Shown here: positions 5,143 to 63,727 of the stretch, in pieces
How positions within the stretch are numbered: position 1 is the first letter of the stretch
Layout of the letters: each line of letters opens with the position of its first letter
NCBI RefSeq assembly: GCF_012933465.1
Contig: NZ_JABBND010000025.1
Span: forward strand, 1 to 64,000
Source: Actinomycetospora sp. TBRC 11914
Lineage (GTDB): Bacteria; Actinomycetota; Actinomycetes; Mycobacteriales; Pseudonocardiaceae
DNA: 64,000 nt
Direction: 5' to 3'
Notes under the pieces: generated by a model
Told to the model about the DNA's origin: nothing
What the model saw: only the letters and a program-made list of their open reading frames with translations
Database searches by the model: none
Program-made: the position numbers and the translations under genes

Positions 5143-5308
5143 CGGGCCCACCTCGGTTCTCGGGACTCGCGCGGGCTCCCATGAGACGACGGATCGCGTG
5201 CCATGGGCAAGGACGCAATCCGGGGACGCGGAGCGCGACGACGTGGACACCGCAGCCCGGCCGAGACGCACTTGAGCAGTCTGCGGACCTGGCCACTGGA
5301 CAATCGTT

Positions 5309-5355
5309 CGGAGAGACTGGAACAATCTCCGTCATGTGATCAGCCACCGCTGATC
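5309..5355. promoter_or_regulatory. Candidate operator region before the 2-oxoacid dehydrogenase operon
   Basis: Within the 290-bp divergent gap are two short inverted repeats: CGGAGA-N11-TCTCCG (5309-5331) and GATCAG-CCACCG-CTGATC (5338-5355). GACAATC and GAACAATC also form a direct repeat here. The position, 80-120 bp before the E1alpha start, suits a regulator such as the Lrp protein encoded at the end of the operon. Binding is inferred only. Confidence 0.35.
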
Positions 5356-5432
5356 CCGACGAGCGTCCGACGCGCCCGGAGACCCCGGACAGGACGTGGA
5401 CCCGCACACCGCGACCCGGTGGAGGAACACCC

Positions 5433-6485
5433 GTGGAGACCTTCCAGCTCGTCTCCCCCGAGGGGGTACTGGCCGACGACCCGGCCGCCGCGGACGTCGA
5501 CGGCGACCTGTGTCGTGGCCTCTACCGCGACATGGTCCTGGCCCGCCGGCTCGACGCCGAGGCGTACAGCCTGCAGCGCCAGGGCGAGCTCGGCCTGTGG
5601 CTGCAGTCCTGGGGCCAGGAGGCCGCCCAGGTCGGATCGATCCGCGCGATCCGCGACACCGACTGGGTCTTCCCGTCCTATCGCGACCACGCCGCCGCGA
5701 TGTGCCGCGGCATCGGCCCCGAGGAGCTGCTCGCGCAGTGGCGCGGGGTGCGCCAGAGCGGCTGGGACCCGGCCCGCCACCGGTTCCACCTCTACACCCT
5801 GGTGCTGGCGGCGCAGCTCCCGCACGCGGTCGGCTACGCGATGGGCGTCCAGCGCGACGGCGCCGACGAGGTCGTCATGACCTACTTCGGCGACGGATCC
5901 TCGAGCGAGGGCGAGGCGAACGAGGCCTTCAACTGGGCCGTGACGATGGCCGCCCCGGTGCTGTTCTTCTGCCAGAACAACGGGTGGGCGATCTCCACGC
6001 CCACCTCGGCGCAGTACGGCGCCCCGCTGCACCGGCGCGCGGCCGGGTTCGGGCTGGCGACGCAGCTGGTCGACGGCAACGACGTGCTGGCCGTCCGCGC
6101 CGCCACCGCCCGGGCCGCGGCGGCGGTGCGGGCGGGGGAGGGGCCGGCGCTGATCGAGGCGGTCACCTACCGCATGGCCGGCCACTCCACCTCCGACGAC
6201 CCGACGCGCTACCGCAGCGGCGCCGAGCTCGACCACTGGGCCACGCTCGACCCGCTCGAGCGCCTCCGGCGGCTGCTCGACGACCGCGGCTGGGCCACGC
6301 CCGGCTTCGTCGAGGAGCTCGAGACCGAGGCCACCGAGCTGGCCGCCGAGGTCCGGCGGGTCTGCCGGGCCATGCCCGACCCGGACGCCGACGCCATGTT
6401 CGCCCACACCCTCGCCGTCGAGACCCGCAGCCAGGCCGCCGAGCGCGCCGGGTACGCGGCCTACACGGCGTCGTTCGTGGACTGA
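5433..6485 (+). CDS. bkdA: 2-oxoacid dehydrogenase E1 alpha subunit (branched-chain type)
   Basis: A 350-residue thiamine-diphosphate E1 alpha. Visible motifs: LWLQSWGQEAAQVGS near residue 53, DWVFPSYRDHAA, the ThDP/Mg motif GDGSSSEGEANEAF followed by FFCQNNGWAIS (GDG...NN), and the loop YRMAGHSTSDDPTRYR. It decarboxylates a 2-oxoacid and passes the acyl group to E2 lipoate. GTG start with GGAGGA 8 nt upstream. The order E1alpha-E1beta-E2 with an Lrp gene resembles mycobacterial bkdABC, so branched-chain 2-oxoacids are the favoured substrates, although pyruvate cannot be excluded. No E3 gene is in the window; a shared dihydrolipoamide dehydrogenase is presumably encoded elsewhere. Confidence 0.88.
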   Translation: METFQLVSPEGVLADDPAAADVDGDLCRGLYRDMVLARRLDAEAYSLQRQGELGLWLQSWGQEAAQVGSIRAIRDTDWVFPSYRDHAAAMCRGIGPEELLAQWRGVRQSGWDPARHRFHLYTLVLAAQLPHAVGYAMGVQRDGADEVVMTYFGDGSSSEGEANEAFNWAVTMAAPVLFFCQNNGWAISTPTSAQYGAPLHRRAAGFGLATQLVDGNDVLAVRAATARAAAAVRAGEGPALIEAVTYRMAGHSTSDDPTRYRSGAELDHWATLDPLERLRRLLDDRGWATPGFVEELETEATELAAEVRRVCRAMPDPDADAMFAHTLAVETRSQAAERAGYAAYTASFVD

Positions 6486-6499
6486 GGACGGAGGACGCC

Positions 6500-7477
6500 G
6501 TGCTCACCCTGTCCCAGGCGATCAACCGCGCGCTGCGCCACGGTCTGGAGTCCGACCCGAAGGTCCTGGTCATGGGGCAGGACGTGGGCCGGTCCGGCGG
6601 CGTGTTCCGGGTGACCGACGGACTGCAGAAGGACTTCGGGGCCGACCGCGTCGTCGACACCCCGCTCGCCGAGGCCGGCATCGTCGGGACCGCGATCGGG
6701 CTGGCGATGCGCGGCTACCGCCCGGTGTGCGAGATCCAGTTCGACGGGTTCGTCTACCCGGCGTTCAACCAGATCACCTCGCAGCTGGCCAAGCTGCACG
6801 CCCGCTCCGGCGGCCGCATCACGGTCCCCGTCGTCGTCCGCATCCCGGTCTCCGGCGGTATCGGCGCGGTCGAGCACCACTCGGAGTCCAACGAGGCCTA
6901 CTTCGCCCACACCGCGGGGCTGCGGGTGATGGTCGCGGCGACCCCGCAGGACGGGCACTGGATGCTGCGACAGGCGATCGAGTCGGACGACCCGGTGATC
7001 TTCTTCGAGCCCAAGTGCCGCTACTGGTCGAAGGGCGAGGTCGCCGAGACCGCCGACGACCCGCTGGTGCTGCCCGCCGAGGTCGCGCGCACGGTGCGCC
7101 CCGGCACCGACGTCACGCTGCTGACCTGGGGCTCGATGGTCGAGACCTGCCTGGCCGCGGCCGCGGCGGCCGACGGCGAGGGCCGCTCGCTGGAGGTCGT
7201 CGACCTGCGCTCGCTCTCCCCGATCGACACCGACGCCCTCGTGGCCGCGGTCGCCCGCACCGGCCGCGCCGTCGTCGTCCACGAGGCGCCGACCTTCGGC
7301 GGGCTCGGCAGCGAGGTCGCCGCGATGCTCTCCGAGCGGTGCTTCACCAGCCTCGAGTCACCCGTCCTGCGCGTCGGCGGCTTCAACGTGCCCTACCCGG
7401 CCGCCCGCCTCGAGGGGCACTACCGCCCCGACCTCGACCGCGTCCTCGACGCCGTCGACCGCGTCCTCGCCTGGTGA
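6500..7477 (+). CDS. bkdB: 2-oxoacid dehydrogenase E1 beta subunit
   Basis: A 325-residue transketolase-like subunit. Key segments: VMGQDVGRSGGVFRVTDGL near the N-terminus, DTPLAEAGIVGTAIGLA (glutamate that activates ThDP), EIQFDGFVYPAFNQI, SESNEAYFAHTAGLRV, and the C-terminal half starting TVRPGTDVTLLTWGSM. It pairs with the E1 alpha encoded just upstream to form the heterotetramer. GTG start at 6500 after GGAGG, 14 nt beyond the E1 alpha stop; an open frame extends far upstream but is antisense-type shadow of E1 alpha. Same transcription unit as its neighbours. Confidence 0.9.
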   Translation: MLTLSQAINRALRHGLESDPKVLVMGQDVGRSGGVFRVTDGLQKDFGADRVVDTPLAEAGIVGTAIGLAMRGYRPVCEIQFDGFVYPAFNQITSQLAKLHARSGGRITVPVVVRIPVSGGIGAVEHHSESNEAYFAHTAGLRVMVAATPQDGHWMLRQAIESDDPVIFFEPKCRYWSKGEVAETADDPLVLPAEVARTVRPGTDVTLLTWGSMVETCLAAAAAADGEGRSLEVVDLRSLSPIDTDALVAAVARTGRAVVVHEAPTFGGLGSEVAAMLSERCFTSLESPVLRVGGFNVPYPAARLEGHYRPDLDRVLDAVDRVLAW

Positions 7478-61248: not shown

Positions 61249-62433
61249 CTAGGAGCCCGACGCGACGACCGAGGCCGACCTGTCGTCGGCCGGTTCACCG
61301 GGCAGCAGATCCAGGATGAGGCCGAGCAGGCTGATCACCAGGCTGGTGGTGATCGGCCCGACGAGGACGAGCCCGACGAGGATCTCGGCTGGGTTGCCGG
61401 TGAACAGGGCAGTGGCCAGGTCGCCGGCGGCGGACCACCACACCCACACGCCGACGGCGAGGGCGGCGAGGCCGCCGAGCAGGCTCGCAGCGCCGTAGCC
61501 CACGAGCCAGCGTGGCCCGCCGGTGGGCTGGTGGCGAAGGGCCCGACCGAGGGCGGCGCGGGCGCGGGCGGCGAGGTCGGGTTCGTCGAGGTAGTCGGCC
61601 AGGGCCCAGTGGCCGTCGACCTGCAGGATCGGCAGCAGGTTCATCATGATCCCGAGCGCACCGAGGACCGCGACCCGCCAGGCGACGGCGTACACGAGCA
61701 CCGGGGACGTGACGAGAGCGGCAGTGATCGCGAGCACGCTGGTCGTCACGAGATCGACCCCGAGCCCGACGAGGGCCTGGGTGACTCGGGCCCGCCGCGG
61801 CAGGGTCAGGGCCTCGGTGGAGTCGACGTAGAAGGAGATGCCGCCCCAGTAGAACCCGAACCCGGCGCGGCGGGGTCGGCGGCCGTACCCGACCAGAGCG
61901 ACGGCGTGGGCGAGCTCGTGCGCGGCGGAGGCCAGCCAACTGATCGCAAGGCCGAGCAGCGCATCCACCCAGGGGTGTGTGCTGACCGACGGGCCCGCCG
62001 GCCGGCCCTGCAGAAGCGCGACCACTCCACCCAGGACGACGAGGCCGAGCAGCAGCCGCCCGGGCAGGGATGCCCACACCCAGCGCAGGTGCTGGTGGAT
62101 CCAGCGGGCGGGTCGCTCGATACCGGTGAACTCCATCCCCGAGCGGGTCACGGTCACCGCCCGCTTGCGGGCGACCGGAGCGCTCCCGGGTGTGGTGGCG
62201 TCGAGGTCAATCAACAGCCCGGTATCGACGAGCTCGGTGACCAGCTCGCGGGGGCGGGGCTCGCCGAGCCGCTCCGCCAATTGCTCGGCGCTCGGGGTGT
62301 CGGCGAGCAGGTCGGGGAGCTGCTCGGCGCGGGGGTGCTCGAGCAGCGCGCCGTCGCCGGCGTCGCCGGCGAGCACCAGGCCGTGCCGCGACACTCGCCA
62401 GCGGGTCGATCCCGCCCATACCAGCCGACTCAT
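61249..62433 (-). CDS. M50-type membrane metalloprotease linked to the peptide array
   Basis: A 394-residue protein. Residues about 1-85 are soluble and winged-helix-like (SAEQLAERLGEPRPRELVTE). The rest has about six membrane segments with the zinc-protease motif HELAH in SAAHELAHAVALVGYG (His about 172) and NLLPILQVDGHW (N-x-x-P-x4-DG, Asp about 273), the M50/site-2-protease pair. ATG at 62433 is chosen because GGAGG stands 5 nt before it; another ATG at 62466 is possible. It lies directly downstream of four identical-length micropeptide genes and a hairpin. The N-terminal domain could recognise a peptide substrate (inference). Confidence 0.75.
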   Translation of the reverse strand: MSRLVWAGSTRWRVSRHGLVLAGDAGDGALLEHPRAEQLPDLLADTPSAEQLAERLGEPRPRELVTELVDTGLLIDLDATTPGSAPVARKRAVTVTRSGMEFTGIERPARWIHQHLRWVWASLPGRLLLGLVVLGGVVALLQGRPAGPSVSTHPWVDALLGLAISWLASAAHELAHAVALVGYGRRPRRAGFGFYWGGISFYVDSTEALTLPRRARVTQALVGLGVDLVTTSVLAITAALVTSPVLVYAVAWRVAVLGALGIMMNLLPILQVDGHWALADYLDEPDLAARARAALGRALRHQPTGGPRWLVGYGAASLLGGLAALAVGVWVWWSAAGDLATALFTGNPAEILVGLVLVGPITTSLVISLLGLILDLLPGEPADDRSASVVASGS

Positions 62434-62492
62434 CAAGTCCTCCAGGCCACCGACACGGCGAGACATCTCTGCGCGTTCACGAGGTACAGCAG

Positions 62493-62523
62493 GGCGCCGG
62501 AGCGGACGACTCGCTCCGGCGCC
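62493..62523 (-). terminator. Hairpin between peptide array and M50 protease
   Basis: GGCGCCGGAGCG / CGCTCCGGCGCC, 12-bp perfect stem with a 7-nt loop, in the 105-bp gap between the last micropeptide and the protease start. It could act as a partial terminator or mRNA stabiliser giving more peptide than protease transcript. Confidence 0.6.
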
Positions 62524-62538
62524 TCCCGCACCTTCCGG

Positions 62539-62583
62539 TTAGGTCCGCCAGTTGCGCGCGAGCCGGCGAAGACGACGCAGCAC
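62539..62583 (-). CDS. 14-residue cationic micropeptide, copy 4
   Basis: VLRRLRRLARNWRT from a GTG start. GAGGAAGGGGG stands 8 nt upstream. The same DNA permits a 17-residue form starting at an earlier GTG (VIVV...), but the spacing favours the 14-codon form. Six Arg and leucines every three or four residues give an amphipathic, strongly basic helix with one Trp. Stop is TAA. Nearest of the four to the protease. Confidence 0.75.
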   Translation of the reverse strand: MLRRLRRLARNWRT

Positions 62584-62632
62584 GACGATCACCCCCTTCC
62601 TCGTGCCATCAGGACGCAGATGCCGATCCAGC

Positions 62633-62677
62633 TCAGGAGCGCCAGTTGCGGGCCAGTCGGCGAAGACGACGCAGCAT
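62633..62677 (-). CDS. 14-residue cationic micropeptide, copy 3
   Basis: MLRRLRRLARNWRS, ATG start, with a strong GGGAGGAGG 7 nt upstream. Differs from copy 4 mainly at synonymous codons (for example R7 CGA versus CGG, L8 CTG versus CTC) and at the final residue, as expected if selection acts on the peptide. Confidence 0.78.
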   Translation of the reverse strand: MLRRLRRLARNWRS

Positions 62678-62727
62678 GGAGAAACCTCCTCCCGATGTCG
62701 TGGTTGATACGAAGGGGCTTCTCGCGG

Positions 62728-62772
62728 TCAGATCCGCCAGGTCCGGGCGAGACGGCGAAGACGACGCAGCAC
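62728..62772 (-). CDS. 14-residue cationic micropeptide, copy 2
   Basis: VLRRLRRLARTWRI, GTG start with GAGGGGG 8 nt before. It carries Thr in place of the Asn before Trp and a C-terminal Ile, the most divergent copy. Like copy 4 it could be read from an in-frame GTG three codons upstream (VIVV...). Confidence 0.75.
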   Translation of the reverse strand: MLRRLRRLARTWRI

Positions 62773-62816
62773 GACGATCACCCCCTCACTGGATCGCAGG
62801 TCAGGCGATACGATGT

Positions 62817-62861
62817 TCAGCCGCGCCAATTGCGGGCGAGACGACGGAGACGACGCAACAT
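62817..62861 (-). CDS. 14-residue cationic micropeptide, copy 1
   Basis: MLRRLRRLARNWRG, ATG start with GAGAGGGGG 5 nt upstream. First of the array in transcription order. It shows the largest set of synonymous differences (L5 CTC, R6 CGT, N11 AAT), again consistent with conservation of the amino acid sequence. Confidence 0.78.
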   Translation of the reverse strand: MLRRLRRLARNWRG

Positions 62862-63265
62862 CACGACCCCCTCTCACTGATTTCCGGGCGCGGCGAAAAC
62901 CGGGAGCAGCGGTGTCGCTCCTGTCGAGGCAGTTCCTCGGGCTTTTGCAGGCTCGTCGGTGGCACACCGGGGATGGATCTCTCCGGGCTGACCGCTCATC
63001 GGAGATCCCGGTCACGTCGTTACCGGTGAAATCGAGCCCGATGGACTCGATCACCGGCTGGAGTTCGGCAGATTCGCACGGTACGGACCGAATCGGACCA
63101 TTCCGCCGCCAATGACACAGACCGACCTCTGCGAGGAATCAGGAGGCCCCCGCGTCGGAGGGGCCGGCCTCGTGCGCGTTCGTGGGCTGATCGTCGCCAG
63201 GAGTAACGCCGCCGGCGCGCCGTCGATGGACAGCACGACTTCATCAACGGATCTCGGGGGACCCT
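62862..63265. other. 404-bp region upstream of the peptide array
   Basis: Between the first micropeptide and the divergent membrane-protein gene. The array promoter should lie here on the minus strand, but I find no firm -35/-10 pair. A GGCCCC / GGGGCC hairpin-like stretch occurs near 63142-63165. A minus-strand ORF (61 residues) and a longer frame running into copy 2 are open but show no ribosome site. No fifth peptide copy was found. Confidence 0.4.
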
Positions 63266-63727
63266 ATGTCGACGTGGGAGCGCCGCACCTACCAGGCGAC
63301 GGTGGCGCACGACCAGTACGTGCGGAACGCCGACCGGGATCGGTGGCTCGTCGAGCACCCCGGGGTGCCCTTTCCGCCGAGCATGCTCACAACCGCCGAG
63401 CAGCGCGCCGAGACCTACATCCGACGGCTGTACGACTCGACCTGGGAGCAGGTCCGCACCACGCTGATCGTCCAGTGGGTGCTGACTGCGGTGTTCGCGA
63501 GCCTGTTCCTCGCGGCCGGCGTCGTCGGAGTGCTCATCAGCCTCGGCATAGTCGTCGCGATGGCGGTGCACCATCACCGGGGGCGCACCCTCTGGCACGA
63601 GCTGCACGAGCCGGCCCCGGAAGCGTCGCCGAAGCCGCTGTCTCCCGAGGAGGCCGCCCGGATCGTCGCCGACTGGGAGCCGCCCACCGAACGGATCGTC
63701 CTCAGGCCGTCGCGTCACGCGGCGTAG
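63266..63727 (+). CDS. Membrane protein
   Basis: A 153-residue protein. A soluble N-terminal part (MSTWERRTYQATVAHDQYVR; LTTAEQRAETYIRRLYDS) precedes two membrane helices (IVQWVLTAVFASLFLAAGVV and GVLISLGIVVAMAV), with a C-terminal acidic tail. GGGGGACCCT stands before the ATG. Divergent from the peptide array; whether it is connected (for example as immunity or sensing protein) cannot be told from sequence. Confidence 0.65.
   Translation: MSTWERRTYQATVAHDQYVRNADRDRWLVEHPGVPFPPSMLTTAEQRAETYIRRLYDSTWEQVRTTLIVQWVLTAVFASLFLAAGVVGVLISLGIVVAMAVHHHRGRTLWHELHEPAPEASPKPLSPEEAARIVADWEPPTERIVLRPSRHAA

Follow-up and report, generated by a model that had tools for sequence, protein, structure and literature searches.

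Arg-rich micropeptide genes accompany an M50 protease subfamily in Actinomycetospora and other actinobacteria

Introduction

What do four open reading frames (ORFs) of only 45 nucleotides (nt) each encode when they stand in tandem beside the gene of a membrane protease, and does that protease act on their products? The question is raised by the window, the 64,000-nt stretch of Actinomycetospora sp. TBRC 11914 analysed here (contig NZ_JABBND010000025.1, positions 1 to 64,000), in which a sequence-only reading had noticed such an array next to an M50-type gene. Gene callers usually require about 90 nt, and genes for peptides of 14–22 residues would be skipped. We describe here a family of such genes that recurs beside one rare protease subfamily, and we put at about one half the probability that the peptides are substrates of this protease, a dedicated enzyme of the type found with ribosomally synthesized and post-translationally modified peptides (RiPPs), and are cut by it to small signal or bioactive peptides.

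The four micropeptide genes of the window

The four ORFs lie on the minus strand, at 62817..62861 (gene 1, MLRRLRRLARNWRG), 62728..62772 (gene 2, VLRRLRRLARTWRI), 62633..62677 (gene 3, MLRRLRRLARNWRS) and 62539..62583 (gene 4, VLRRLRRLARNWRT); their length of 45 nt, their start-to-start spacings of 89, 95 and 94 and the encoded peptides are exactly those first reported. Each has, as had also been claimed, its own Shine-Dalgarno-type, G-rich stretch that ends 5–8 nt 5′ of the start codon (GAGAGGGGG, GAGGGGGTGATC, GGGAGGAGG and GGAAGGGGGTGATC for genes 1 to 4, respectively). Genes 2 and 4 start with GTG, and in gene 1 a GTG stands immediately 5′ of the ATG. One direct-repeat family of 62 nt takes in all four copies; relative to the copy used as reference, the identities of the other three are 69, 73 and 90%.

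Pairwise differences between the window copies at codons 2–10 comprise 23 synonymous and no nonsynonymous changes, and the seven copies of the window and A. endophytica taken together have 3, 1 and 6 variable sites at codon positions 1, 2 and 3 of this region. The corresponding ratio of nonsynonymous to synonymous differences (pN/pS) is 0.00 in the window, 0.21 in A. endophytica, 0.15 in Mycobacterium sp. MYCO198283 and 0.42–0.62 in three further arrays. The window ORFs are also more alike (identity 0.76–0.88) than the spacers between them (0.56–0.69). Arg codons differ synonymously, and selection is seen at Leu and Ala positions as well. Because codons 2–10 vary synonymously only, the ORFs look like translated peptides under selection.

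The M50 protease

The M50 gene is indeed the next one on the same strand, downstream of the four-ORF array (61249..62433); it encodes 394 residues from the ATG at 62433, or 405 from an alternative upstream ATG at 62466. The protein contains HELAH at residues 172–176 and DG at 273–274, and H172, E173, H176, D273 and G274 are invariant in 13 of 13 subfamily proteases. Its hydropathy profile has six peaks, three of them overlapping, with several segments that resemble transmembrane helices; it thus combines HExxH, DG and a multi-pass membrane topology in the manner of site-2-type M50 enzymes. An N-terminal part of about 90 residues has an unproven fold. The Pfam Peptidase_M50 model gives 12.9 bits, below its cut-off of 27.2, and the best named relative is the NCBIfam daptide_HExxH model, at 113 bits against a cut-off of 300; the LiaK model scores 29 against 225. 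All 13 subfamily proteases match these two NCBIfam models at E≤1, and a profile comparison of the subfamily with a protease found beside daptide-like precursors returned a probability of 97. Judged by these scores, the window protease is kin to the daptide protease family yet outside it.

The subfamily is rare and patchy. Matches at E≤1e-30 were found in 4 of 394 genomes of the class, two of them strong and one of these the window's own, in 4 of 297 genomes of the family, all Actinomycetospora, and, at E≤1e-60, in 7 of 326 genomes of the genus of genome G339 and 6 of 397 of the order; in the phylum sample 24 of 396 genomes matched, strongly only in the window's own. These samples overlap, and some genomes are counted in several of them.

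Distribution of the peptide family

Altogether 70 distinct peptides of 14–22 residues (median 16) were gathered from 17 genomes of several families. The list was compiled by hand from several scans, with GTG starts written as M and one peptide read by eye from the DNA and then confirmed; the long ORFs of A. termitidis and A. sp. NBRC 106375 and the fused ORF of G339 stand outside it. The genes mostly have 14–17 codons and number from one to more than a dozen per genome. A core that ends in Leu (mostly), Thr or Ala (mostly) and Arg is present in 69 of the 70 peptides, for the most part as R-L-(T/A)-R; when these are aligned on the core, all 69 have Arg as its last residue and 53 of 69 have Leu as its second. 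All 70 peptides carry a net charge of +5 to +10, 65 lack Asp and Glu, and Thr is C-terminal in one. The single Trp per peptide on which the sequence-only reading had relied is not conserved among the 70.

A search of the genome collection with four proteases led to 15 loci, and the subfamily now counts 17 protease loci, 16 of them with an unbroken frame. Peptide genes lie within the fetched locus in 15; the other two are G339, with a fused-repeat ORF, and A. termitidis, with an array about 18 kb off. An eighteenth protease, with an internal stop codon, has no peptide genes. A metagenome-assembled genome (MAG) of Microthrixaceae is counted among the 17 peptide genomes, and among the 17 protease loci G339 stands in its place.

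The layouts are diverse. A. endophytica has three copies, upstream of a protease that is 78% identical to that of the window, and Mycobacterium sp. MYCO198283 has four genes of 16 residues, spaced by 88, 91 and 91 and upstream of the protease, much as in the window. M. manitobense has two genes and a probable third, and there is one upstream gene each in Blastococcus, Geodermatophilus, Williamsia, Mycolicibacterium arenosum, Humibacillus (with an IS110-type transposase near the locus) and a Frankiales MAG. Downstream genes are found in Actinoplanes (one) and Spirilliplanes (two), where the gap between the protease stop codon and the peptide gene start is 4 and 5 nt, respectively, and in the Microthrixaceae MAG (one), whose divergent protease is 36% identical and shows no HExxH in the matched frame. 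In A. sp. NBRC 106375, nine genes of 15 residues are packed into about 750 nt beside an FHA-domain gene, and a hairpin that has a T run comes after them; just past this array, at the contig end, lie what are presumably transposase ORFs (L023:15600-16060, plus strand). The protease of this genome bears an extra FHA domain, and four further genes of 16–22 residues stand some 0.5 kb downstream of it.

Three genomes have 13–14 peptide genes each. In both G1270 and G1259, which share a genus label with M. manitobense and M. arenosum and are taken as mycobacterial for that reason, a single gene precedes the protease by about 0.4 kb; eleven further genes lie on the opposite strand 2–3.5 kb away, and past the other side there are one or two more. 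G339, with the same genus label, has a 66-residue ORF of three fused peptide repeats on the strand opposite the protease. The A. termitidis array comprises six short genes with interleaved forms of about 37 residues that have a similar Arg-rich tail (TTIITGETAEPTRSTGLRRL.RRTTRGRR-like; L083, minus strand, ~5650-6720); judged by eye, at least two of these longer forms are preceded by a similar upstream stretch.

Two incomplete proteases were met as well. A second subfamily copy in A. endophytica (L024:9718-10293, plus strand) is truncated and has no HExxH, its 19 kb contain no match to the peptide motif, and beside it lies a 964-residue ORF that we take to be patatin-like. Another protease (L133:1501-2649) has an in-frame TGA and looks like a decaying copy; the fetched 4-kb locus contains no peptide.

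Specificity of the pairing

A scoring profile was made from seven peptides of the window and A. endophytica, and these two loci are not independent of it. Among the 14 subfamily loci outside this set, 12 contain ORFs that score at least 22.4, the two misses being A. termitidis, whose array lies beyond the locus, and G339, with its fused form. The controls were 40 loci of other M50 proteases, some of them overlapping or related (L017 and L018, for example); the highest score among their 183 ORFs is 18.3, below all 27 rows at 22.4 or more. The separation is less than perfect, since an ORF unlike the family (L092 9517) reaches 21.7, also above the best control.

A regular expression gave 48 matches in 20 family loci (399 kb), of which 47 are apparently genuine and one (L090 3579) looks like chance. 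The 40 M50 loci used as controls (150 kb) contain no match, nor do 35 other Actinomycetospora loci (119 kb), a non-random set of 34 weak matches to the array models R1 or R2 plus L024. The expression was written after the family had been seen, so the family matches are descriptive and the empty background is the informative part; the stretches of A. termitidis (L022, L083) and G339 (L142) do not match it either. Three stretches of viral contigs fit a peptide pattern, and none of these codes for a relative.

Of three newly met proteases, two are accompanied by a peptide that scores 26.6, in loci closely related to each other (L134, L135), and the third, that with the internal TGA (L133), by none; the prediction stated beforehand had named other search centres, the new proteases coming from the genus of G339 and the order. 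Among 18 Actinomycetospora genomes, the four with a full-length protease are the four with strong array matches. The models R1 and R2 could miss very different arrays in the other 14. They were built from copies of the window genome, A. endophytica and A. sp. NBRC 106375, and of the four only A. termitidis was found outside them; among the weak matches (E above ~0.001) in other Actinomycetospora genomes, those in L023 alone were followed up one by one and led to its large array. Absence of the peptides beside M50 homologues of related genomes, which would have spoken against the sequence-only reading, is thus not what is seen: the pairing recurs in many genera.

Other features and gene neighbourhood

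The M50 gene is separated from gene 4 by a GC hairpin of the minus strand (62493..62523, arms 62493-62504 and 62512-62523, 12 bp, 100% complementary), which resembles a terminator or attenuator with no T run; the stretch around it folds with a z-score of −4.8. Hairpins lie 3′ of peptide genes in relatives too, and 10 of 12 chosen stretches fold at z≤−2, a figure biased to low values by cutting the stretches around hairpins already spotted. About 130–160 nt upstream of gene 1 there is a block, GGTAACG-N2-GTGAC-N2-GGATCTCCGATG-N2-CGGTC (62990..63024, minus strand), and these 35 nt recur in A. endophytica at about equal distance from the array; the block may act as a promoter. The window has no Rfam match at gathering scores, which lends no support to a known RNA family. 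Divergent from the array, a 153-residue protein (63266-63727, plus strand) has weak Pfam and NCBIfam matches, all below cut-off, and no match among the other compared loci.

Within 7 kb of the protease, no other gene cluster is common to three or more of the 15 loci compared, as found with an incomplete ORF caller that missed some proteases. Among 49 neighbour proteins of 12 loci, AAA_16, Pyr_redox_2, p450, GerE and NAD_binding_1 are the only Pfam families seen in two or three, and no family of transporters or of daptide or other RiPP enzymes is seen in at least two, save for a distant P450 match; IS110-type transposases account for 2 of the 49. At three loci (L090, L097 and G339) the neighbours include a large LuxR-type regulator, and FHA-domain genes are found in two Actinomycetospora loci; a conserved regulator partner was dropped as an idea, regulators being confined to subsets of loci. 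One protease (L094:5888-7756, plus strand) carries a C-terminal FHA fusion and lies beside a Ser/Thr kinase with a beta-propeller and an FHA gene, which suggests phospho-signalling around this version of the enzyme.

Discussion

Because of the pairing, the tight operons, the ribosome-binding sites, the hairpins, the expansion of copies and the fused ORF, we think it about as probable as not (roughly 0.5) that the cells make the peptide in large amounts and that the protease processes it; the three-repeat ORF of G339 is as expected of a precursor. Starting from what can be read in the sequences (the genes, the selection on the peptides, their pairing with the subfamily, the catalytic motifs and the kinship with MpaP), we infer how transcription, the level of translation, cleavage, release and activity might proceed. 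A patchy, widespread family of leaderless, strongly basic micropeptides of 14–22 residues would feed one M50 intramembrane protease. The peptide genes would mostly be translated from their own ribosome-binding sites, and the transcript would probably end largely at the GC hairpin, so that more peptide than protease is made. The enzyme, which is related to MpaP and YydH/LiaK, would bind the basic peptide at the membrane and cut it, and the short product would act outside or be re-imported, as happens with Eep and pheromone precursors; extra gene copies would raise the dosage and diversify the product. We favour a signalling or bacteriocin-like output, with no choice between the two. Among the roles first suggested, those linked to the protease (a processed signal or a leaderless RiPP precursor) gain from the constant company and the kinship with RiPP-associated M50 enzymes, and the antimicrobial part stands weaker.

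Several observations weigh against processing by the protease. In the basic 14-mers one sees no clear membrane-spanning stretch on which an intramembrane protease could act. No exporter, modifying enzyme or receptor is conserved beside the protease. A RiPP recognition element (RRE) in its N-terminal part was sought with Pfam PqqD, which matched none of the three N-termini scanned; hhalign gave probabilities of 0.5 and 4.4 when the protease N-termini were compared with those of further M50 proteins, among them a set that does have a PqqD match, and this part has no meaningful match in the PDB. A conserved leader and a variable core are not divided at any constant point. In the window and MYCO198283 arrays variation is greatest at the C-terminus, which a ‘conserved leader, variable core’ scheme fits, and the scheme fails in the G1259 and G1270 arrays, where the N-terminal part varies. 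To these are added the distance of the A. termitidis array from its protease, the partial redundancy of the control loci and a few listed ORFs (L140 3304, L141 3492 and 11554) with no clear Shine-Dalgarno stretch.

Could the intact peptides be active by themselves? As cationic, membrane-active antimicrobials akin to leaderless bacteriocins, with the M50 protein as immunity factor, receptor or degrading partner, they would suit their charge and the scarcity of Asp and Glu, and the bacteriocin EntK1, which reportedly needs the M50 protease RseP, offers a precedent (PMC9672952). The amphipathic cationic helix predicted at the outset holds as to charge and falters as to shape: the helical moment of window peptide 1 is significant (P=0.029), yet the hydrophobic moment beats that of shuffled sequences at P<0.05 in just 7 of the 23 peptides to which the test was applied, and the three short ones among them from A. 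termitidis and NBRC 106375 come nowhere near significance. A uniform amphipathic helix was accordingly dropped. With no exporter conserved nearby either, we regard this antimicrobial explanation as unlikely, if still the best of the alternatives.

Rather doubtful, and somewhat below it, is the proposal that the peptides are uncut small regulators or subunits of the protease (activators, inhibitors or anchors). The constant company of one protease subfamily and the 4–5-nt gaps at two loci would accord with it, and the conserved core could serve as a docking motif; 13–14 different peptides per protease in three genomes and the fused ORF nevertheless fit a substrate or product better. An arrangement of the toxin–antitoxin type, in which basic peptides toxic to their own cell are removed by the protease, seems improbable to us. 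It would be in keeping with a minimal two-gene cassette, with the patchy spread and with the lack of a peptide beside the interrupted L133 protease. So many copies of a toxin would be unusual, and a tblastn search of phage and plasmid collections gave no match to the protease, though transposases do neighbour it in places. Least credible are regulatory leader ORFs that control the protease gene by Arg-codon attenuation or ribosome stalling. In most loci the ORFs do precede the M50 gene and are separated from it by a hairpin, as would suit such leaders, but position and copy number largely refute an attenuator leader peptide: the genes are downstream in Actinoplanes, Spirilliplanes, the Microthrixaceae MAG and, for one of its two arrays, NBRC 106375; in G339, G1259 and G1270 some or all of them occupy the opposite strand; in A. 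termitidis they are ~18 kb off; and many are tandem. Leu and Ala positions are selected too, and Arg codons vary synonymously.

If the peptides are indeed processed by the protease, the two would form a minimal two-component system of peptide maturation, and actinobacteria would offer a large, as yet unexploited supply of small peptides. That they constitute a new class of ribosomal peptide (arrays of mostly 14–17-codon genes for leaderless, diversified Arg-rich peptides, a single RiPP-type protease, secreted signals or effectors) is a proposal that we make tentatively, at slightly less than even odds; such a class would be scattered through Actinomycetota and invisible to standard annotation. 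In any case, recurrent, selected peptide genes below the reach of ordinary gene finders come here with a ready enzyme partner, and looking beside orphan RiPP-type proteases is a way to find tiny genes of this kind. The sequence-only reading knew of no characterised family with this layout, and our literature search agrees: open-access full text, with few preprints and no subscription journals, held no description of the peptides and none of the four peptide strings tried, and the gene family is apparently undescribed.

Comparison with known systems

The nearest known systems are the daptides (MpaA precursors and the peptidase MpaP; NF041824), where several similar short ORFs likewise accompany one homologous M50 peptidase. 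As described, daptides occur in Actinomycetota and Bacillota, MpaP removes the leader, and the precursors have an ELExMEAP-type leader and an invariant C-terminal Thr (PMC10036551); unlike these, the peptides here are Arg-rich, have 14–22 residues and possess neither the ELExMEAP motif nor the invariant Thr. Nor do modifying enzymes (MpaB/C/D/M) or an ABC transporter recur near the protease. On these grounds, and with 113 bits against 300 for the protease, membership in the daptides was rejected. The fifteenth locus, from an uncultured Clostridia MAG (L099:454-742 and 5214-6470, plus strand), has two daptide-like precursors (FEELETVE..., Thr end) in place of Arg-rich peptides; they lie a few kb from its M50 protease, a relative of ours, and the locus is probably an ordinary daptide cluster.

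Epipeptides (YydF, with YydH/LiaK; NF058609) also combine a small ribosomal peptide with a dedicated M50 enzyme, a model of which all 13 proteases match weakly. The partner in YydF systems is a radical SAM epimerase, and none recurs near the protease here. Streptococcal short hydrophobic peptides (SHPs) offer another parallel: they are short pro-peptides that depend on an M50 protease for their activity. The M50 enzyme Eep has a share in producing the SHP pheromone, whose active part is the C-terminus (PMC3150281). SHPs differ, however, in being hydrophobic and paired with Rgg regulators (PMC3679016). Beside the peptide genes no Rgg-type receptor was found, and no regulator family is common to the loci. 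Leaderless bacteriocins of the EntK1/LsbB type are longer than 14–22 residues. They resemble the present peptides in being small and leaderless, and an M50 protein is reported to be their receptor (PMC9672952, PMC5413573). Unlike them, the peptides here, at 14–22 residues, are often arrayed.

Biarylitides have, to our knowledge, no M50 partner. They are cross-linked by a P450 and unrelated in sequence to the peptides here. Tiny RiPP precursor genes as such are already known from them: their precursor of 5 residues is encoded by an 18-bp gene too short for gene callers (PMC13417212), and the micropeptide genes described here escape gene callers in the same way.
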